Source: Synechococcus sp. WH 8020
Lineage (GTDB): Bacteria; Cyanobacteriota; Cyanobacteriia; PCC-6307; Cyanobiaceae
NCBI RefSeq assembly: GCF_001040845.1
Contig: NZ_CP011941.1
Span: forward strand, 577,744-641,743
DNA length: 64,000 nucleotides
Direction: 5' to 3'
A program made the position numbers and the translations under genes. This document shows positions 48,693-63,587 of this stretch, piece by piece. Below the pieces are notes generated by a model that worked only from the letters and a program-made list of their open reading frames with translations, ran no database searches and was not told the DNA's origin. Every line of letters starts with the position of its first letter. The stretch's first letter is position 1.

Positions 48693-50432
48693 TCATTCGT
48701 TGATGCGGATGAATTGTCGTTCGCACAGTTCTCGATATCTGCCGCCCTGACTCATCAGATCGTCATGGCTGCCCTGTTGGCTAATTCGACCATGTTCAAG
48801 AACAACAATGAGATCGGCTTCTTGAACCGTTGCCAAACGATGGGCAATCACAATCACGGTTCGACCCAGCATGGCTTGCTTGAGCCCAAGTTGAACAGCG
48901 GCCTCCGCCTCTGCATCAAGGGCACTGGTCGCTTCGTCCAATAGCATCACAGCTGGATTTCCAAGCACTGCCCTCGCAATGGCAATGCGCTGTAGTTGTC
49001 CGCCTGAAACGTTGGTGCCTCGCTCTTGAAGACGGGTGTTGTAGCCGTCTGGAAGACGGATGATGAAGTCATGGGCGTTGGCAAGCTTTGCAGCTTGATG
49101 GAGCTGTTCCTGCGTGGCCTCTCGGCCAAATCGTATGGCTTCCGCGATCGTTCCAGAAAACACGCTGCTGCGTTGGGGAACAAGAGCCACTTGTTGTCTC
49201 AGGTCGCGCGCGCAGACCTGGCTGAGATCTTTGTCGTCAAAAAGAAGCTGACCTTGATTAACGCGATTAAACCGCAGGAGTAGAGAAAAAAGCGTCGTTT
49301 TTCCAGCGCCTGAAGGTCCAACGAGGGCCACCACCTGTCCGGCCTTAATGGAGAGGTTGAAGTCTTGAAGAACGGGTTGGCCTGGTATGTAAGAGAACTC
49401 GACTTGATCGAAGGTCAAATTTCCCTGCAGGCGACCAATAGGAATCGACGGGACAGGATCTGCCGGTTCCGAGGGTTCCTTTTCGATTTCACGCAAACGG
49501 CGCAGTGAGGATTGTCCCTGCTGAAATTCGTTGTAATTCGCAGTGACATGGGCGATTGGATCGATCAGCAGCACCAAGCCAGTGAGGTAGCTGATCAGTT
49601 CAGGGACTGAAAGATCACCGCTACTGATTCTGATCGCTGCTAAGACCAGGACTGTGGCGAAACCCAGGACCTCAATGATCCCGACTACGGGATGTTGGAG
49701 GGCAACAAGGCGATAGGTGTTGTAGCGAGCTTGCCGGTGCTGATCGATTTCTTCTTCAAAACGGCGTTCCAACCAGGGCTCTGCGGCAAAGGCACGGACG
49801 AGAGGTAGCCCTTCAATGGCCTCTCCCAGCAGACCTGCCAGTTCACTGACCTTTTTTTGACTTCGTTCAGTAGCGATCATCACCCTTGCCCCAAACAGGC
49901 TGATCAGCCACGCAACAAATGGGGCGAGGAGCAGGATCGCAAGCGTTAATTTCCAGTCAAGCCAAAGCATGTAGCCAAGTACAGCCACCAATTGCAGAGC
50001 ACTTGGGATGCTGTCGTGGAGAGTTTTGTAAATCACCTCGCTCACACGATCAGCATCTTCTGTGAGCCGGTAGGTGAGATCCCCGGACGACATTTTCTCC
50101 AAGGCACCGAGCTGCACCTTCTGAAGCCTTTGAAAGAGGTCTCTTCTCAGTGACTGGCTGACTTGTAAAGCGGGTCCTGCAAGCAGAGAGTCTTGGCCAA
50201 ATTGTGCCAGTTTTTGGATCGCGAAGACCAACAGAACGAGTCCGATGACCGGGAGGATTCGCTTGAGATCACCCGATCCCACATCGGGCAACAGCCTGCC
50301 CATCAGTCGCATCAACACCAGTTGGCTGCTGACAAAAACCAGCATGCAGAGAGTGCCGATCGTCAGCAGTCGCCTGTGAGGTCGCAGCAGTGGAATCAAC
50401 CTGCGGAATCCCGCTTCTGATGGCTTCAGCAT
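48693..50432 (-). CDS. ABC exporter, fused permease-ATPase
   Basis: A 579-residue half-transporter of the MsbA/lipid-exporter-like type. Six membrane spans fill residues 15-310; the ATPase domain is complete: Walker A ALVGPSGAGKTTLFSLLL near residue 369, Q-loop VALVPQRSSVFSGTI, signature VSGGQLQRIAIARAVL, Walker B VMLLDEATSALD and H-loop VIVIAHRLATVQ. It would form a homodimer. Substrate unknown. It is divergent from the S4-domain gene. Its intact ATPase motifs contrast sharply with the two degenerate exporters at 53762-57627. Confidence 0.9.
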   Translation of the reverse strand: MLKPSEAGFRRLIPLLRPHRRLLTIGTLCMLVFVSSQLVLMRLMGRLLPDVGSGDLKRILPVIGLVLLVFAIQKLAQFGQDSLLAGPALQVSQSLRRDLFQRLQKVQLGALEKMSSGDLTYRLTEDADRVSEVIYKTLHDSIPSALQLVAVLGYMLWLDWKLTLAILLLAPFVAWLISLFGARVMIATERSQKKVSELAGLLGEAIEGLPLVRAFAAEPWLERRFEEEIDQHRQARYNTYRLVALQHPVVGIIEVLGFATVLVLAAIRISSGDLSVPELISYLTGLVLLIDPIAHVTANYNEFQQGQSSLRRLREIEKEPSEPADPVPSIPIGRLQGNLTFDQVEFSYIPGQPVLQDFNLSIKAGQVVALVGPSGAGKTTLFSLLLRFNRVNQGQLLFDDKDLSQVCARDLRQQVALVPQRSSVFSGTIAEAIRFGREATQEQLHQAAKLANAHDFIIRLPDGYNTRLQERGTNVSGGQLQRIAIARAVLGNPAVMLLDEATSALDAEAEAAVQLGLKQAMLGRTVIVIAHRLATVQEADLIVVLEHGRISQQGSHDDLMSQGGRYRELCERQFIRINE

Positions 50433-52860: not shown

Positions 52861-53529
52861 TTAAATAACAAACTGACCGTATTCATTTAGCTGTAATCTG
52901 GCAAAAAAATCTGTTAACTGACGATTGATAGCATTTTGAGCGACAAGTATATCACCAATACGACCACCATTAATACGTTGATGTTCAAGAGCTCGTTCTA
53001 CAGATGATTGGGAGACTAAACCGAGATTTGAAAGTCTTTCGCCAAGCTTTAAAGAATTAAAATCTAGACTTGCAAGGCTTTTTGTCAGAAAAAAATCAAG
53101 TATTTGGAAAGGGATATTCAAATTAAGTCGAAGAAATTCACCAAATCTTTGTGTATTTGAATATGGCTGAAATTTGTCGAGTAGTTCTTCAAGGTCTTCT
53201 TCAGAAAGCAAACCACAAAGAACTAACTTTTCCCCTAAAGCCTGAGAATTAAAATTACTTGATTGGTTTTCCTTATGATCATCAGAAAGGCTTCCTGAGA
53301 CCAATTCAGGCCCTTCAAACTTACTTTGAACCAACGAATCATTAGATAAGAAAGAATATAATCGATTAGGGTCTAAGCGTGTCGTTCCAAACTCCTGAAT
53401 AATGAGCTCTTCAATAAATGAAGACTCCGTGTAGGGGGCTACAATAGAAAAATTGAGGGGAAATGAATGACCATAACCTATAACCTCTACGCGAGTCACA
53501 TCACTTTTTAGAAGAAGTTTAACGGACAC
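52861..53529 (-). CDS. Stand-alone MshEN-like (putative c-di-GMP-binding) protein
   Basis: A 222-residue protein without ATPase. After a short alpha/beta N-terminal part (1-60) and a Ser/Asn-rich linker come two helical modules. The C-terminal module fits the MshEN layout exactly in length: a 24-residue motif at 161-184 (KLGERLSNLGLVSQ to EHQ), a 5-residue spacer (RINGG) and a second 24-residue motif at 190-213 (RIGDILVAQNAINRQ to RLQ). The module at 97-150 has the same pattern in degenerate form. MshEN domains bind c-di-GMP in type II/IV pilus ATPases; the first motif has Lys instead of Arg. It is divergent from the secretion genes (232 bases apart). Confidence 0.72.
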   Translation of the reverse strand: MSVKLLLKSDVTRVEVIGYGHSFPLNFSIVAPYTESSFIEELIIQEFGTTRLDPNRLYSFLSNDSLVQSKFEGPELVSGSLSDDHKENQSSNFNSQALGEKLVLCGLLSEEDLEELLDKFQPYSNTQRFGEFLRLNLNIPFQILDFFLTKSLASLDFNSLKLGERLSNLGLVSQSSVERALEHQRINGGRIGDILVAQNAINRQLTDFFARLQLNEYGQFVI

Positions 53530-53761
53530 GTATTTTTATTTTAAAATCATAATATAACGATAAGCCCGTTCTTGTTTGGTGAAAAAACACTGAGAAGAGC
53601 ATGAGTGAAGCCTAAGTGACTCCTAAATTTAGAATTATAGTATAATGAAAATTCAAAAAAATCCTTCAAAATGTAAGCAATTCGCACTTTTGGGGTCAAC
53701 TTAGTAGTGACAGCGTAAAAAAGTCACTAAAATAAATTTCAGATGCATCCAATGGTTATCT
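53530..53761. promoter_or_regulatory. Divergent AT-rich promoter region
   Basis: 232 bases between the MshEN-like gene and the first ABC gene. Very low GC with several TATAAT-like stretches (for example AATTATAGTATAATG near 53632-53646 on the plus strand). It must contain both promoters; no operator can be defined. Confidence 0.45.
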
Positions 53762-55471
53762 GTGAAGCAATTTATTTCTAATCTAAAAAGATATTTAAAA
53801 AATAAACAACAAAAATACAAGAATTTGTTGTATGAGTTGTATCATCATCAATACTTTCAGTCTTTAAAGCAATTCAGTTGGAATAAGTATCGAATTGGTC
53901 AAATAGTTATAGCTTCTATCTTGATCAATCTATTAGAGCTCTCAGCGCCTATTTATATTAATATTGTTTATTCAGTAATCCTTCCTAGACGAGCAACTGA
54001 AAGCTTGATCGTTCTGACAATTTTAGTTGTTGTTTTAATGACAATATCAGTTTGGTTAAAGATAATGAGACTTGATTTAGTCGGTGAAGACAGTGCAAGA
54101 GTTACCCATGAGAAACGAGTCAATGCAATTCGTCACTTTGTATCGATTCCGATTCGAAACTTTTTAGAATCATCTCCTTCAGAACATATATCGAGATTAA
54201 ACAGCATTAATTTATTGAAAGATAATTCAGCGTTGCAATCATTGACAACAGTCATTGATTTGATTTTTTCAATTATATTTATTCTGATTTTATTTGCAAT
54301 CGGTGGAATACTTGTTTTGCCTGTTGTGTTTGGTATTACTGTATTCTTTTTCAAGTCCTTATCATTTGCTAATGACTTTGAAATTGTTAGTAAAGAGCAG
54401 GATCAACTAGAAATCAATCGATTAAATACTCAGATTGATACTGTTGATTCTGCCGACCTCATTAAAGCCAATGGATTGAATACCCAGTATTTAACCTCTC
54501 TAGAGCCCTTACAGGAACGTCTGTCTTGGCGAAGAATGAAAAACAATCAATATCTTTTAAAACATCAAGCCTTCGGAAACCTAGTGAGTCAAGCAACGCT
54601 TGCAGCAGTCGCCACTCTCGGTGCAATTTTAGTGATCAACGATCGTTTGTTGGTTGGTGCTTTAGCTTCAGCAATTTTACTCATCGGTAAAATTTTCAAC
54701 CCTTGGCAAAGACTTTCCACGTTATGGAGCAGTTACAGAAGCTTAGTGCATTCACAGGATGAATACCAAGCACTCATGAGTACACCCATTATCGAGATCA
54801 ACAATATGAAATCTACGAATACCATCTCACCAACGGACTCGGGCAGTTTCACCATTACAACATCAGAACTTGGCAGGCTAGATATCTATCAAAATGAAAG
54901 CAATTGGATTAATTCTAAGTCTAATGCTATTGAGATAACAAAGATGTTTGAAAACATTGTTCTGGCAGACAACGATCAAATAATTCGATTGAATGATATT
55001 CCTCTAAGTGAATACTCTGGAACTGAAGTTATCAATCAAATAGCGTATGTAAATCCGTCTTTTAGATCTTTTGATGGTTCTTTAATGCAAAATTTAAGTT
55101 GCTTTCAGCCTTCAAAGTACAAACGAAGTGCTCTTTTCTGGTCATATTTACTCGGGATTGATGAAAAGATAAAAACTCTTCCCCTGGGGTACGAAACTAT
55201 CATTGGAAATCAGATGGGTTCAGGCTTAACTGCGGATGATGAAAAATTACTCCACATTATTTCTGGCTTGTCTAAAAATCCGCTGCTTCTTTTTATTGAT
55301 TTAAATGGATGTACGTTTGGAAAGTCTTTCATAGAAGGCTTGCAGACGATCATAAATTGTTGCAAAGGCCGTACAACATTAGTGATCTCAGGTGCAAGTC
55401 CGGTTCTGGGAAAAATATGCAATCAAACGATTCAACCATTATTAGCCACTAAAGTTGGAGGTGTTCAATGA
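53762..55471 (+). CDS. Type I secretion ABC half-transporter with degenerate ATPase domain
   Basis: A 569-residue membrane protein. A six-span ABC transmembrane domain (about 40-330) includes IASILINLLELSAPIYINIV and LVGALASAILLIGKIFNPWQ, typical of type I secretion exporters. The C-terminal domain has the length and order of an ATPase but not its motifs: at the Walker A position it reads NESNWINSKSNAIEITK, the Q-loop is VNPSFRSF, the signature LSGGQ is SGLTADDEKLL, Walker B is LLLFIDLNG without Glu, and no H-loop His is present. It probably works only in complex with the next gene's product, whose ATG overlaps its stop by four bases. It starts with GTG 53762. Confidence 0.82.
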   Translation: MKQFISNLKRYLKNKQQKYKNLLYELYHHQYFQSLKQFSWNKYRIGQIVIASILINLLELSAPIYINIVYSVILPRRATESLIVLTILVVVLMTISVWLKIMRLDLVGEDSARVTHEKRVNAIRHFVSIPIRNFLESSPSEHISRLNSINLLKDNSALQSLTTVIDLIFSIIFILILFAIGGILVLPVVFGITVFFFKSLSFANDFEIVSKEQDQLEINRLNTQIDTVDSADLIKANGLNTQYLTSLEPLQERLSWRRMKNNQYLLKHQAFGNLVSQATLAAVATLGAILVINDRLLVGALASAILLIGKIFNPWQRLSTLWSSYRSLVHSQDEYQALMSTPIIEINNMKSTNTISPTDSGSFTITTSELGRLDIYQNESNWINSKSNAIEITKMFENIVLADNDQIIRLNDIPLSEYSGTEVINQIAYVNPSFRSFDGSLMQNLSCFQPSKYKRSALFWSYLLGIDEKIKTLPLGYETIIGNQMGSGLTADDEKLLHIISGLSKNPLLLFIDLNGCTFGKSFIEGLQTIINCCKGRTTLVISGASPVLGKICNQTIQPLLATKVGGVQ

Positions 55472-57627
55472 AAACTTCAATTGAAAATTCCAAAACACTG
55501 GGACATTCAGAAAACAAACCACTGATACGAGATCTATCTCTTAGTCCTGATTTACCCCTTGTCTTTTGTATCAGGCTCCTTTTACAAGAAATTGAATGGA
55601 CAGGTTCAATTAACGAGATCGCGAATCTCATTGGAAGAAATCCAGAGGAAATGGATCTTGTAGATGCAAGAAATTTATTTTTACGACTTGGTTATAATTC
55701 TCAACTTAAAAACCTTAAAGATTTTAAATCAATCAATATCCATACATTACCAGCTTTATATATTGACCCTAGCAATCAACCCTTTGTTCTATTTACAGAA
55801 AATCAAGGTTTAATTGTCGCAGGAAATGCAAAAGGTCGATTTGACATTAACAATATTGAGCCTGGTGGATTACTTTTAATTCTGGATGAAATAAATTTCA
55901 ATGACGAAGTATCATTTATCAAAAATATAGCCTATCGATTCTCCAATAAAATTACTTTGCTTTATTGGATTAGTCTTGGGATATCATTGCTTGCTTTATC
56001 ATTGCCACTTTATTTGCGTGCAATTTACAATATTGCCATTCCAGGCGAAGCATTGGTCTCATCATTATTGTTATTCTTTGGAATTGGGGCTTTATTTATC
56101 CTCGAATTCAATATGCGTCAGTGGCGCTCAAATTTAATCAGTCAGATGGCTGGAAAGCTTGATTCATTATTTGGAATGAAAGTCACTCAGAAATTTTTAG
56201 GCCTTGATTACTCTCAAATCAAGAGTATCAATCTAAGTAACTACAACACGAGGATAAGAAATTTAGATGCAATGCTAAATTACCTAAAAGGACCGTTGGC
56301 TCTAGCGTTACTTGATTTCCCTTTTATCATCATTTATTTAATTGCAATCGGGCTTATTGCTGGAAATCTTGTTTTTGTTCCAATTGTTATTATGCTGATA
56401 AGTGGTTCGATAATTGTAGTTTTATCGAAGTATTATAGCGGTGCCGAAGAATTAAATATTAAAACAAGTGTTGGTATCTTGCAGGCTCAGTTGGAAATTG
56501 TTAGACGATTTAAGGAAATAAAACTTTCGCATCTTGAATTGATCTGGATACAACGTATCCGAGCTTTATCTGGTGAAAGTACTAAAAGTGGCTTGGTTCT
56601 TAATAAACAAGCAGGTGTTCTACAGATATTAACTTCAACCTCGTCTCAAATGGCTGGTACTCTTACTCTTGCTGTTGGGGCTTGGATAATGTTTACTAGT
56701 CCAGCAGGTAATAATGTACTTGGCAACTTAATTGCTGCCATGTTTATTGTGTGGCGTGTTTTTACTCCTTTTCAATATTTAATGAATGCATTGCTTCGTT
56801 TTGATACCATTAGTAAGCAATATGGTCAGCTTGACCGCTTCCTAAAACTAAGAAACTATTCTCCTGTTGCAAGACCAACTGTCAATACAAAATCAAGTTT
56901 ATACGGTTCAATTCAATTGGATTCAATATCTTGTCGAATTCCTACCACTTCACGGCTATTATTGGCAAAAATTGATCTTAGATTTGTTCCTAGTACCATT
57001 TATGCAATAACTGGTAAATCAGGATGTGGGAAATCAACATTGCTTAACGTCATTGCTCAACTGTATCCAATTGCAAATGGTAATCTTTCGTTTGACGGTA
57101 AAGATTATCGTCAGTTTACGAATGAAGATATTCAGAGTAATATTTCATATGTAATGAATAATAGTCAATTTCTCAAAGGAAGCCTATGGCAAAATTTAAC
57201 AGCAATGAATCCTGATGCATCCATAGATGCTGTTAAAGAAATATGTGAAATGATAGGCATTTATGATTATATTGAGAATCTTCCAGAGGGTTTTGATACT
57301 TATTTGGATAATGACATGAGTTATTATTTTCCTGTCGGAGTACAAAAGTTGATGAGTTTGGCTCAGGCTTTGATTAAGGACTCACCCATTCTACTGATTG
57401 ATGATATTAGTCAAGGTTTGACCCCTATTCAATTTGAGGCAGTTGTTAATGCGCTACCTCGGATAAAGCAATGCAGGTTTTCAAGAAAAGAGCGATGTAT
57501 CATTATGACAACATCTAATAATAAAATGCTTGGATTAGCTGATAATATTTGCATTATTGATAAGGGTGTTTCTACATTCCAGGGTACACAAAAAGAACTT
57601 GAAATGATGGTTCATTCTAAAACCTAG
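55468..57627 (+). CDS. Type I secretion ABC half-transporter, C39-like N-terminus and partly degenerate ATPase
   Basis: A 719-residue protein. Residues 30-140 resemble the C39-like domain of HlyB-type exporters but lack the catalytic Cys and His. Six spans follow (SLGISLLALSLPLYLRAIYN onward). The ATPase domain keeps Walker A (TGKSGCGKSTLLN, about 518-530) but the signature is YFPVGVQKLMSLAQAL instead of LSGGQ, Walker B is PILLIDDISQGL with Asp in place of Glu, the Q-loop is MNNSQFL and the H-loop is TTSNNK. It is translationally coupled to the previous gene. A heterodimer is inferred. Confidence 0.87.
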   Translation: MKTSIENSKTLGHSENKPLIRDLSLSPDLPLVFCIRLLLQEIEWTGSINEIANLIGRNPEEMDLVDARNLFLRLGYNSQLKNLKDFKSINIHTLPALYIDPSNQPFVLFTENQGLIVAGNAKGRFDINNIEPGGLLLILDEINFNDEVSFIKNIAYRFSNKITLLYWISLGISLLALSLPLYLRAIYNIAIPGEALVSSLLLFFGIGALFILEFNMRQWRSNLISQMAGKLDSLFGMKVTQKFLGLDYSQIKSINLSNYNTRIRNLDAMLNYLKGPLALALLDFPFIIIYLIAIGLIAGNLVFVPIVIMLISGSIIVVLSKYYSGAEELNIKTSVGILQAQLEIVRRFKEIKLSHLELIWIQRIRALSGESTKSGLVLNKQAGVLQILTSTSSQMAGTLTLAVGAWIMFTSPAGNNVLGNLIAAMFIVWRVFTPFQYLMNALLRFDTISKQYGQLDRFLKLRNYSPVARPTVNTKSSLYGSIQLDSISCRIPTTSRLLLAKIDLRFVPSTIYAITGKSGCGKSTLLNVIAQLYPIANGNLSFDGKDYRQFTNEDIQSNISYVMNNSQFLKGSLWQNLTAMNPDASIDAVKEICEMIGIYDYIENLPEGFDTYLDNDMSYYFPVGVQKLMSLAQALIKDSPILLIDDISQGLTPIQFEAVVNALPRIKQCRFSRKERCIIMTTSNNKMLGLADNICIIDKGVSTFQGTQKELEMMVHSKT

Positions 57628-57676
57628 CCTTTTAATTAATTCTCTGACACTACTTCACTCGCTTGCAACCTTTTTC

Positions 57677-59059
57677 ATGGCAAACTCTACTTCAAATGGA
57701 TTCACCCCAGAATCGAGTTCAAAGGTTTCCAATTCAGCTTCACTTTTTAGCAAACTTCCTGGTTTGTCAGCATCAGACTCTAATGCATTGATAGGTAGAA
57801 ATAGATTGGCTCAGGCCTTAGAGCTTGAAGATCCGCAGGATAATTTATTCGTTAAAAGAAGCCTTTATGTGTTAGGCGCAGCAGCTCTTATTTTCTTCCC
57901 ATGGGCTGCACTAACGCCCATCACCCAGGTTATCGAAGCTTCTGGTGAAGTCATACCTCAAGGTTCCGTTAATATCATTCAACATTTAGAAGGTGGTATT
58001 GTTTCGTCTGTTAACGTTAAAAATGGTCAGTCAGTCAGAAAGGGAGATGCTTTACTTCAATTAAACCCACAAATGGTAGGTAGTGAATTTTCTGCTACAA
58101 AATCTAAGTTGGATGCTCTCATTATTCAGCAACAACAGCTTCAAGCTGCAATTCGTGGAGACGATGTATTGCCCAGACAAAACAATATTGATGGTTTTAA
58201 TGAAAGTAAGGTAAGTGTTGCGCAACAGAATCTTCTTACTAGCCGATTAGAGAATGCATCAGATCAATTGAAGTCTGCTAACGCTGTTGTTGCTGAGAAA
58301 TCTGCGGAAATCAATGGTCTAAATAAACAGTTGAAACTACTAATTGAAGAAAGAGATATGTGGGCCTCACTGACAAAAGATGGTGCAAGCTCAAGGCTTC
58401 AACTTGTCAATGCTCAAGCACAAGTTGAGGAAATTCGTGGTGCACGTAATGAGGCGACAAAAGCATTTGCTCAAGCAAAAGCTAACCTTCAAAGCCTTCA
58501 ATCAGGCTTAGCACTCGAACAAAATTCAGAAATAGCATCCTTGGTCAATGAGGAATCAGTTGTTGCAGAAAACATCAAGAAAGTCCGTTTTCAACTTTCA
58601 CGAATGGTTGTCAAAGCACCAGTATCAGGAACAGTGAGTGACCTTCGTTTTTCTGCTCCCGGAGCTGTCGTAGCACCTGGAGCGGTGGTTGCGTCGGTTG
58701 TACCAGCTGGCACCACAAAATTAGTTGAAGCTCGAATCCCATCACAGGATATTGGTTTTGTTCATATCGGACAAGATGTCGAGGTTAATCTTCAGCCTTT
58801 TGATTCATCCATTTACGGCACTATTCCTGGACGTTTGACGTCCATTTCTGGGGATACTGTTCAAAATCCTGATGACCGTCAATTTTATTACAATGCAATG
58901 ATTGAGCTTGATCGGCAATACCTTGATTCCTCTAATCAAAAATACCCTGTACAGGTTGGAATGCCCGTCGTTGCAGATATCAAAGGGCAGCGAAGCAATG
59001 TTCTCCAATACTTATTCCATCCTTTTGTTCGGACGATCAATGGAGCGATGCGTGAATAG
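57677..59059 (+). CDS. HlyD-family membrane fusion protein
   Basis: A 460-residue type I secretion adaptor. A cytoplasmic N-terminal tail (1-60) precedes one membrane span (SLYVLGAAALIFFPWAALTP), then the lipoyl half EASGEVIPQGSVNIIQHLEG, GIVSSVNVKNGQSVRKGD, a long coiled coil (about 150-310) and the closing lipoyl/beta-barrel part VKAPVSGTVSDLRF and VEVNLQPFDSSIYG. It bridges the inner-membrane ABC exporter and the outer-membrane TolC, not encoded here. Gene order with the ABC pair is typical. Confidence 0.92.
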   Translation: MANSTSNGFTPESSSKVSNSASLFSKLPGLSASDSNALIGRNRLAQALELEDPQDNLFVKRSLYVLGAAALIFFPWAALTPITQVIEASGEVIPQGSVNIIQHLEGGIVSSVNVKNGQSVRKGDALLQLNPQMVGSEFSATKSKLDALIIQQQQLQAAIRGDDVLPRQNNIDGFNESKVSVAQQNLLTSRLENASDQLKSANAVVAEKSAEINGLNKQLKLLIEERDMWASLTKDGASSRLQLVNAQAQVEEIRGARNEATKAFAQAKANLQSLQSGLALEQNSEIASLVNEESVVAENIKKVRFQLSRMVVKAPVSGTVSDLRFSAPGAVVAPGAVVASVVPAGTTKLVEARIPSQDIGFVHIGQDVEVNLQPFDSSIYGTIPGRLTSISGDTVQNPDDRQFYYNAMIELDRQYLDSSNQKYPVQVGMPVVADIKGQRSNVLQYLFHPFVRTINGAMRE

Positions 59060-59228
59060 GTCAATCCTGAAATTCTCAGTTTACTTTCAGCTCTTTAGAT
59101 CCATTGCTGTACAACGACTTTCGGCTTATCGCTGGTCTTCCCGCTGACAGTTCAAGGTCGCATGCTTTCTGAAGATGATCTGCGATCTAAATAGCTAATT
59201 ACTATTTGATTAGTCGCACTCGGTTCGA

Positions 59229-63587
<4,359 letters not shown>

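Follow-up and report, generated by a model that had tools for sequence, protein, structure and literature searches.

The window under study is a stretch of 64,000 nt from Synechococcus sp. WH 8020 (NZ_CP011941.1, 577,744-641,743, forward strand). Two half-exporters of the type I kind are encoded on its plus strand. ABC1 (53762-55471, 569 aa) is composed of a transmembrane domain (TMD) and a pseudo-ATPase domain and has no C39-like domain. ABC2 (55468-57627, 719 aa) carries an N-terminal C39-like domain (CLD), a TMD and a catalytically substituted ATPase domain. The two genes overlap by 4 bases and both frames are open. Downstream of the pair lie a HlyD-type periplasmic adaptor (57677-59059, plus strand), which matched TIGR01843 with 282.5 bits against a cut-off of 208.65, and a 1452-aa repeat protein (59229-63587, plus strand). 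The latter is the putative substrate, and its match to TIGR03660 (4.1e-11, 43 bits) is below the cut-off of 66.05. A divergent companion gene (52861-53529, minus strand) encodes a protein of 222 aa with a MshE-N-like cyclic-di-GMP-binding motif (NCBIfam NF053729).

Both ABC1 and ABC2 show the type I exporter architecture, an ABC membrane domain fused to a nucleotide binding domain (NBD). Each half matched the LssB, HlyB and PrtD models of type I exporters, with scores far under the curated cut-offs. With LssB, ABC1 scored 149.8 bits and ABC2 245.4 bits against a cut-off of 693.1, which says little here because ordinary exporters also fall under it (it was exceeded in none of the four genomes scanned). 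In Pfam, ABC1 matched ABC_membrane and gave no ABC_tran match up to E=1; ABC2 matched ABC_tran at 1.5e-19. The AlphaFold2 model of ABC1 had a pLDDT of 81 and its top Foldseek match was HlyB chain B (TM 0.74). In the HlyB PDB entry, 700 residues are modelled in chain A and 570 in chain B. This asymmetry, with and without the CLD, may be the one encoded by ABC2 and ABC1. The ABC2 model was poor (pTM 0.43), and a NBD-like domain was predicted in both models. Compared to ordinary exporters, the conserved positions gained in the membrane-domain region are mostly acidic in ABC1 and mostly basic in ABC2.

The pair belongs to a family of two anciently split clades, and the window pair is a member of clade A. 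The motifs were read from alignments of 25 clade-A and 7 clade-B rows for ABC1 (L078, the fragment L085, the cut gene of G147 and the twice-present contigs L123, L126-L131 and L137 were excluded) and of 25 and 6 rows for ABC2 (L078, the split L138 and L088 were excluded). In ABC1, the Walker A position (54905-54949, alignment columns 382-396) has no P-loop and the Q-loop Gln is lost. The Walker B Asp513 (24/25 clade-A rows) is followed by Leu514 (25/25) in place of the catalytic Glu (55298-55303), and Gly544 (25/25 in clade A) stands for the H-loop His (55391-55393). Gly520 and Lys521 of the D-loop (55319-55324) are each found in 25/25 clade-A rows. The preliminary description had ABC1 without the P-loop, signature, Walker B Glu and H-loop His. 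All of these losses were reproduced excluding that of the signature, which is partly kept as a residual L-T/S-x-D in the 25 clade-A rows (55226-55240; GLTAD in the window). Leu489 and Asp492 are invariant there (25/25 each), and the residue at the T/S position is Ser in 24 rows and Thr in one.

ABC2 agrees with that description at every motif. Its Walker A, GKSGCGKST, is kept (57013-57039), with Lys522 in 25/25 clade-A rows. The signature position reads FPVGVQ for LSGGQ (57328-57345; Pro622 24/25, Gly624 25/25), and Walker B is Asp645-Asp646, in which Asp replaces the catalytic Glu (57400-57405; 25/25 each in clade A). Ser683 occupies the H-loop position instead of His (57514-57516), where the 25 rows have Asp (21), Ser (2) or Glu (2). 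At the Q-loop, Gln is absent from the window ABC2 both at the expected position and at the next one; a shifted Q-loop is possible in some relatives, since Gln is located one position later in 9/25 clade-A rows. The set expected of the HlyB/LssB/PrtD class, namely Walker A, LSGGQ, the Walker B Glu and the H-loop His, is incomplete in both halves, and the observation of two half-exporters both short of catalytic residues was confirmed. The claim that neither composite site is canonical holds as well, and more strongly in clade B. Clade A keeps one Walker A Lys, that of ABC2, whereas clade B has no P-loop Lys in either half: in clade-B ABC2 it is replaced by Thr (4) or Arg (2) in the six rows, and by Ser in WB4. 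As a control, 24/24 ordinary exporters of relatives (L018-L041) matched Walker A, the signature, the Walker B Glu and the H-loop, using loose patterns sought anywhere in the protein. The locus L165 was found to be a clade-B ABC2 and not an ordinary exporter.

The ABC1-ABC2 pair occurs in 31 of 400 Cyanobiaceae genomes, both marine and freshwater. Clade-A pairs are found in 26 of the 400 and five genomes are clade-B-only; the window genome holds a clade-B pair too. In the tree, ABC1 and ABC2 each form a single group (support 100/99). Both are divided into the same two clades, and therefore the two halves travelled as a pair. The profile searches covered Cyanobiaceae and cyanobacterial draws at the class and phylum levels. 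The class-level draw of 388 genomes gave the pair in 8 at E 1e-50, all Cyanobiaceae, and the phylum-level draw of 386 genomes gave it in 7, again all Cyanobiaceae; the remaining 14 of 21 matches in the latter were ordinary exporters. Across GTDB species genomes, a pattern-based scan returned 13 loci, comprising 10 with cyanobacterial titles, two weak ABC matches and L078, which is 88% identical, is titled as a Flavobacteriales MAG and is probably misbinned. The plasmid search gave no match to the pair. Divergent members may be missed in these counts, because the profile searches score three first-look candidates per genome and the GTDB scan needs either of two conserved peptides.

The substituted residues appear to be maintained. 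The dN/dS of the NBDs was 0.048-0.204 across five genome pairs, compared to 0.073 for the ordinary exporter NBD of G000/G020, the latter a close relative of the window genome, and that of the whole cluster genes was 0.029-0.177 over five genome pairs. Decay or sequencing error as the cause of the motif loss is very improbable and was rejected. In favour of decay, the ABC2 of G171 falls into two frames and the HlyD of CS-1328 is split, but the same substitutions are common to more than 20 assemblies and the dN/dS values are low. Canonical motifs in close homologues would have pointed to damaged frames; the close homologues share the same degenerate motifs. The earlier view that the system is maintained and not decayed is therefore strongly supported by its occurrence in 31 of 400 genomes, the NBD dN/dS and the near-invariant substituted residues.

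The companion protein scored 56.4 bits with NF053729 against a cut-off of 38, with the motif at residues 161-206, and gave no Pfam hit at E values of up to 1. The MshE-N-type region is conserved across 17 aligned sequences including that of the window. By this motif the protein is a candidate MshE-N-type c-di-GMP receptor, and its binding is putative. The companion gene is present in 26 of the 400 Cyanobiaceae genomes, the very ones that hold a clade-A pair, and it is adjacent and divergent in 21 of the 23 clade-A loci of relatives having upstream sequence. Since none of the five clade-B-only genomes has it, it can be no general gate. The repeat protein of the window has a T1SS-143-like repeat, an acidic C-terminus and an N-terminal segment common to relatives, whose repeat proteins at the same position contain DUF5801 or RTX repeats. 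A repeat-rich frame was located behind HlyD in 14/16 clade-A loci examined and beside the pair in 7/8 clade-B loci, and the repeat protein would be the substrate of the pair. OEP proteins, candidates for the TolC-like outer-membrane part of the system, are present in 4/4 genomes searched, away from the pair.

Our main reading, with a probability of about 0.45, is that the two halves are pseudo-ATPases that function only as an ABC1-ABC2 heterodimer, a gate or conduit by which giant repeat adhesins would cross the inner membrane. We infer the heterodimer, nucleotide binding, the absence of hydrolysis (from the residues in the sequences), the substrate, the gating and the energy source. The heterodimer would take the place of the HlyB homodimer in type I secretion, with the fold and the membrane conduit retained and the ATPase domains turned into pseudo-ATPases. 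In clade A, a single nucleotide site would be left, to which ABC2 contributes Walker A and the Walker B Asp, with the L-S-x-D remnant of ABC1 lying opposite; this remnant would be half of the site completed by the intact ABC2 Walker A. ATP or a different nucleotide may sit in this site as a ligand for structure or gating and be hydrolysed little, if at all; GTP and c-di-GMP are further candidate ligands, since the adenine-stacking position is not aromatic. Clade B would have lost even this site. A gate would control export, possibly the c-di-GMP-type companion protein in the case of clade A, and the driving force would be something other than hydrolysis in the pair, either proton motive force or adhesin folding outside. 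The full form of the idea is tentative and somewhat unlikely: type I secretion without an ATPase, in which both halves are pseudo-enzymes and a conduit, c-di-GMP-gated in clade A and nucleotide-free in clade B, passes adhesins on another energy source. Among the mechanisms offered in the preliminary description, the gated conduit fits best, and the co-occurring c-di-GMP-type gene adds a candidate gate-keeper. Several results stand against the main reading. The companion gene is missing from clade-B-only genomes, the genes split in G171 and CS-1328 and the poor ABC2 model weigh on it, and most pair genomes hold an ordinary exporter. According to PMC5018854, the H662A variant of E. coli HlyB binds ATP without hydrolysis and arrests HlyA secretion at an early stage, and no pulling by Ca2+ was seen. 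Therefore, no precedent was found for an unaided hydrolysis-dead exporter.

The unbroken conservation of Lys522, Asp645 and Asp646 in clade A could mean residual catalysis. Accordingly, the pair could be a rewired live ATPase, in which slow hydrolysis takes place at the clade-A ABC2 site, Asp646 acting as the base and other residues assisting, for example the D-loop Lys521 of ABC1. That Lys521 is equally invariant, that the L-S/T-x-D of ABC1 is kept and that the NBD dN/dS is low all agree with this. The replacement of the H-loop His, the ABC2 LSGGQ and the catalytic Glu, together with a Q-loop Gln lost or shifted, makes it unlikely, and it cannot explain clade B because the Walker A Lys is lost there. 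Hydrolysis could also be borrowed, the pair being passive in a mixed assembly while another ABC ATPase works. Zhao et al. are said to have described, in 2022, three ABC transporters in the HlyB/HlyD system. A strong match to the ordinary 1011-aa exporter is present in 30/31 pair-bearing genomes (best E 0 to 3.5e-220), which favours this proposal of the preliminary description; an ordinary type I exporter as the engine is weakened by G143 and could still apply in the other genomes. In G143, one contig and 99% complete, the pair, HlyD and OEP proteins are present, and a search for an intact C39-type exporter found none. Its best match to the 1011-aa exporter is a 705-aa frame, 35% identical over query residues 56-603, and appears to be an intact half-transporter lacking a domain of the C39 type. 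The sole C39-type exporter seen there besides the pair is a NHLP-type pair that is degenerate as well. Intact half-transporters of other kinds are also present in G143 and could serve as engines. A borrowed engine is quite unlikely overall. It is similarly improbable that the pair has ceased to export and, with HlyD, acts as a scaffold or sensor for keeping the adhesin at the surface or timing it there, with another system doing the secretion. The loss of catalysis with a kept fold and the strict companionship with the c-di-GMP-type gene in clade A would suit such a role. However, HlyD and the repeat protein adjoin the pair in most loci examined, and G143 offers no intact C39-type exporter to do the secretion.

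The preferred gate or conduit reading bears on a wider question. According to PMC5018854, type I secretion is described by two models, continuous ATP hydrolysis and a gating event only. A natural lineage in which each site is short of catalytic residues, and whose sister clade has no P-loop Lys either, would make this choice testable in a native system. If true, it also adds an exporter family tied to picocyanobacterial surface repeat proteins, with a c-di-GMP-type protein as a further link in one of the clades.

The pair resembles HlyB, LssB and PrtD in the TMD-NBD architecture, the C39-like domain of ABC2, the adjacent HlyD adaptor and the repeat-rich neighbour. It differs in being two dissimilar halves instead of a homodimer and in the loss of catalytic motifs from both. 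In a search of open-access journal papers, no report was found of a type I exporter in which both sites are degenerate. SbmA itself has no NBD and imports peptides. SbmA-like peptide transporters (SLiPT) are described in PMC13316013 as using an ABC-type membrane fold and the proton gradient without ATP hydrolysis. The pair, in contrast, has a HlyD adaptor and keeps its NBDs, a NBD-like domain being predicted in both halves. The SPI-4 system is alike in that a giant adhesin, SiiE, leaves by a type I route with a non-ATP accessory, the proton-channel SiiAB; PMC12607715 describes SiiF as the engine that hydrolyses ATP and SiiE secretion as unaffected by SiiAB loss. Among the genes of the cluster, none was recognised as SiiAB-like. 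TAP is a heterodimeric exporter with one degenerate site. The same is stated for TmrAB, TM287/288, ABCC1 and CFTR (PMC7756269), and TmrB has Asp at D500 for the catalytic Glu (PMC8277102). The pair would share with the TmrAB type an asymmetric heterodimer, and ABC2 has the Asp of TmrB. The TmrAB type keeps one canonical site, whereas no canonical composite site is present in clade A or clade B and the latter has no P-loop Lys at all. If the main reading is true, the pair would represent a further family of ABC exporters, distinct from those known with one degenerate site.

The cluster under study spans 52861–63587 of the window. It comprises a small divergent companion gene, the two half-exporter genes, which overlap each other, and genes for an HlyD adaptor and a 1452-aa repeat protein. 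ABC1 (53762–55471, plus strand, 569 aa) and ABC2 (55468–57627, plus strand, 719 aa) both matched the LssB, HlyB and PrtD type I secretion models. The N-terminal C39-like region was covered in ABC2 (HlyB model from position 3) and was not covered by the HlyB match to ABC1. Such pairs fall into two clades, A and B, and that of the window belongs to clade A. A separate ABC half-transporter of 579 aa (48693–50432) is found near the cluster, with tpiA and folP, in 17 of the 20 clade-A loci tested; this is probably a shared neighbourhood only.

The preliminary description had claimed that nearly all catalytic ATPase motifs are lost from both halves. This was borne out by an alignment of ABC1 and ABC2 with paralogues, relatives and one ordinary type I exporter from the same genome, in which columns were counted over 25 clade-A rows and, for clade B, seven rows of ABC1 and six of ABC2. 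In clade-A ABC2, Lys522 of Walker A and Asp645 of Walker B are present in 25/25 rows, and Asp646 replaces the catalytic Glu in 25/25. The H-loop His position is occupied by Asp (21 rows), Ser (2) or Glu (2). The LSGGQ signature is replaced, with Pro622 in 24/25 and Gly624 in 25/25. A Q-loop Gln is aligned in none of the rows, and nine of the 25 have a Gln one position later. Column 491, presumably the A-loop position, holds Leu in 20, Ile in three and Val in two of the 25; the A-loop position is aromatic in ordinary exporters. The P-loop is found in none of the 25 clade-A ABC1 rows. Asp513 of Walker B is kept in 24/25, Leu514 stands for Glu and Gly544 for His in 25/25, the remnant signature is L-S/T-x-D, and Gly520-Lys521 of the D-loop is invariant. 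In clade-B ABC2 (n = 6), the Walker A Lys is replaced by Thr (4) or Arg (2) and the catalytic Glu by His (4), Asp (1) or Ser (1). As a control, all four motif patterns were matched by 24/24 ordinary exporters from relatives.

The further claim that the pair is maintained also held. A profile built from seven ABC1 proteins detected members of the family in 31 of 400 Cyanobiaceae genomes; their E-values were ≤4.6e-89, clearly separated from the ≥4.4e-53 of ordinary exporters. Over five genome pairs, dN/dS was 0.048–0.204 for the ATPase domains of the pair and 0.029–0.177 for whole genes of the cluster. The ordinary exporter, compared between the window genome (G000) and G020, gave 0.073 for the ATPase domain, 0.029 for the membrane domain and 0.208 for the whole gene. 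The original observation is correct and extends further than claimed: type I exporter pairs that are degenerate in both halves make up a conserved family. Two frames encode ABC2 in G171 (514 + 176 aa; L138:7306–9435) and the cluster HlyD in Synechococcus sp. CS-1328 (L086:12674–14086), which is either decay or assembly error. Outside Cyanobiaceae, the family was not seen in class- and phylum-level genome draws or in a pattern scan of GTDB species genomes. A contig titled as a Flavobacteriales MAG (L078) carries a pair whose ABC2 is 88% identical to that of the window, but this contig is probably cyanobacterial and misbinned.

A tree of 30 rows placed ABC1 and ABC2 in one group each (100/99), and each group divided into clades A and B. 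Therefore, the unlike halves predate the split of the clades and stayed together. In an earlier tree that included one faulty row, the support of the ABC1 group was 77/34. The window genome has both clades. Its clade-B pair (L072:6610–11788; G000:C1:384.6–389.8 kb) is more degenerate, having lost the P-loop Lys in both halves, and is accompanied by an HlyD of its own and by a divergent gene for a repeat protein with DUF5801. tpiA and folP lie within the same 20-kb locus in 18/20 clade-A loci versus 0/6 clade-B loci tested. G106 has, besides a clade-A pair, an outlying clade-B-like pair in the order HlyD-ABC1-ABC2 downstream of a long repeat-rich frame (L140:7120–12404).

The companion gene (52861–53529, minus strand) is strict in one clade of the family. 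Its product has an MshE-N-type c-di-GMP motif above cut-off, which is conserved among relatives. It was found in 26 of 400 drawn Cyanobiaceae genomes, and these are the 26 with a clade-A pair. Here the two draws of 400 genomes were treated as identical, as their displayed handles agree, and G147, with a cut gene, was counted as clade A from 82% identity to a clade-A ABC1. The gene was absent from the match set in the five clade-B-only genomes G025, G027, G028, G223 and G276. Among the 23 relatives' loci with upstream sequence, 21 have it directly beside the pair in divergent orientation. Since it lies 7.5 kb from ABC1 in G106 and on a separate contig in G096, its link to the clade-A pair is more than adjacency.

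The ABC1 model (pLDDT 81, pTM 0.56) retains an ATPase-like domain. Its top Foldseek match was chain B of HlyB in the HlyB/HlyD complex (TM 0.74, 20% identity), an entry in which chain A has 700 residues and chain B 570. Judging from these chain lengths, the two separate genes seem to encode an asymmetry that HlyB already shows. The ABC2 model was poorer (pLDDT 74, pTM 0.43; TM 0.46–0.49 against HlyB chains A), and its predicted domain arrangement should not be trusted. The membrane-domain region was screened for positions with a charged residue in ≥90% of clade A and in <30% of the 24 ordinary exporters. ABC1 gave acidic E59, D110, D154, D214, E217, E248 and E252 and basic R119, R258, K310 and R326 (plus H116, H142 and H330). 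ABC2 gave basic R184, R217, R264, R347, R363, R365, R430 and R444 and acidic D247 and E350. This pattern fits an obligate heterodimer.

The putative substrates are repeat proteins. A frame rich in G/D/N/S/T opens 75–1023 bases downstream of HlyD (57677–59059 in the window) in 14 of the 16 clade-A loci examined; none was seen after HlyD in the other two, L134 and L139. These frames have 406 to 2154 aa, many running off the locus end. In clade B, a repeat-rich frame adjoins the pair, mostly divergently, in 7/8 loci, the eighth (L088) being short. DUF5801 was found in four of five repeat proteins tested, including that of G020, which also has RTX repeats; the fifth has DUF7507/DUF11. The window protein (59229–63587) has a T1SS-143-like repeat with a score under cut-off. 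Fourteen frames selected from clade A, otherwise dissimilar, share a short N-terminal segment around LAGN...GSxDNPxG (59229–59400 in the window); the mean column identity is 32%, and the segment is clear in some ten of them. Such a position is unexpected, since PMC5018854 describes the signals of type I substrates as C-terminal. A role in N-terminal recognition is possible. A gene with an OmpR-like C-terminal region, assigned by eye, lies behind the repeat protein in two genomes (L147:5278–5976, directly past the end of the window, and L148:8575–9273).

The motif losses suggest that the pair would work without ATP hydrolysis. Against an unaided dead exporter stands HlyB H662A, which, in the account of this mutant in PMC5018854, binds ATP without hydrolysing it and blocks HlyA secretion early. 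An ordinary exporter is present in 30 of the 31 pair-bearing genomes. The remaining one, G143 (one contig, 99% completeness), has the pair and OEP proteins, and its sole TIGR01843-type HlyD is that of the pair. Its closest match to the ordinary exporter is only 35% identical and looks like an intact half-transporter without a C39-type domain. G143 also has a second, separate exporter pair, which is of the NHLP peptide type (L173:5802–13647; G143:C1:115.8–123.6 kb; halves of 899 and 727 aa). With it are encoded a separate HlyD of NHLP type and, divergently, a 567-aa protein whose gene overlaps one OEP hit. Both halves keep the Walker A Lys, but neither retains the signature, Walker B Glu or H-loop His. 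In G266 (L177), a comparable NHLP pair has intact motifs, and the next best relatives among 251 Cyanobiaceae genomes are only 25–28% identical. Thus, an intact C39-type exporter was not found in G143. Since further intact ABC half-transporters are encoded there, an ABC ATPase of another kind may power export as a borrowed engine. PMC5018854 also lists the proton motive force and a model of an ATP-gated channel as possibilities. A single stroke from ATP binding alone is described for TmrAB in PMC7205462, and an ABC-type fold driven by a proton gradient for SbmA in PMC13316013.

Compared with known systems, the pair is a variant of type I secretion that stands outside the HlyB family proper, as its halves lack the ATPase motifs of that family. 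Nor does it belong to the class of exporters with one degenerate site.
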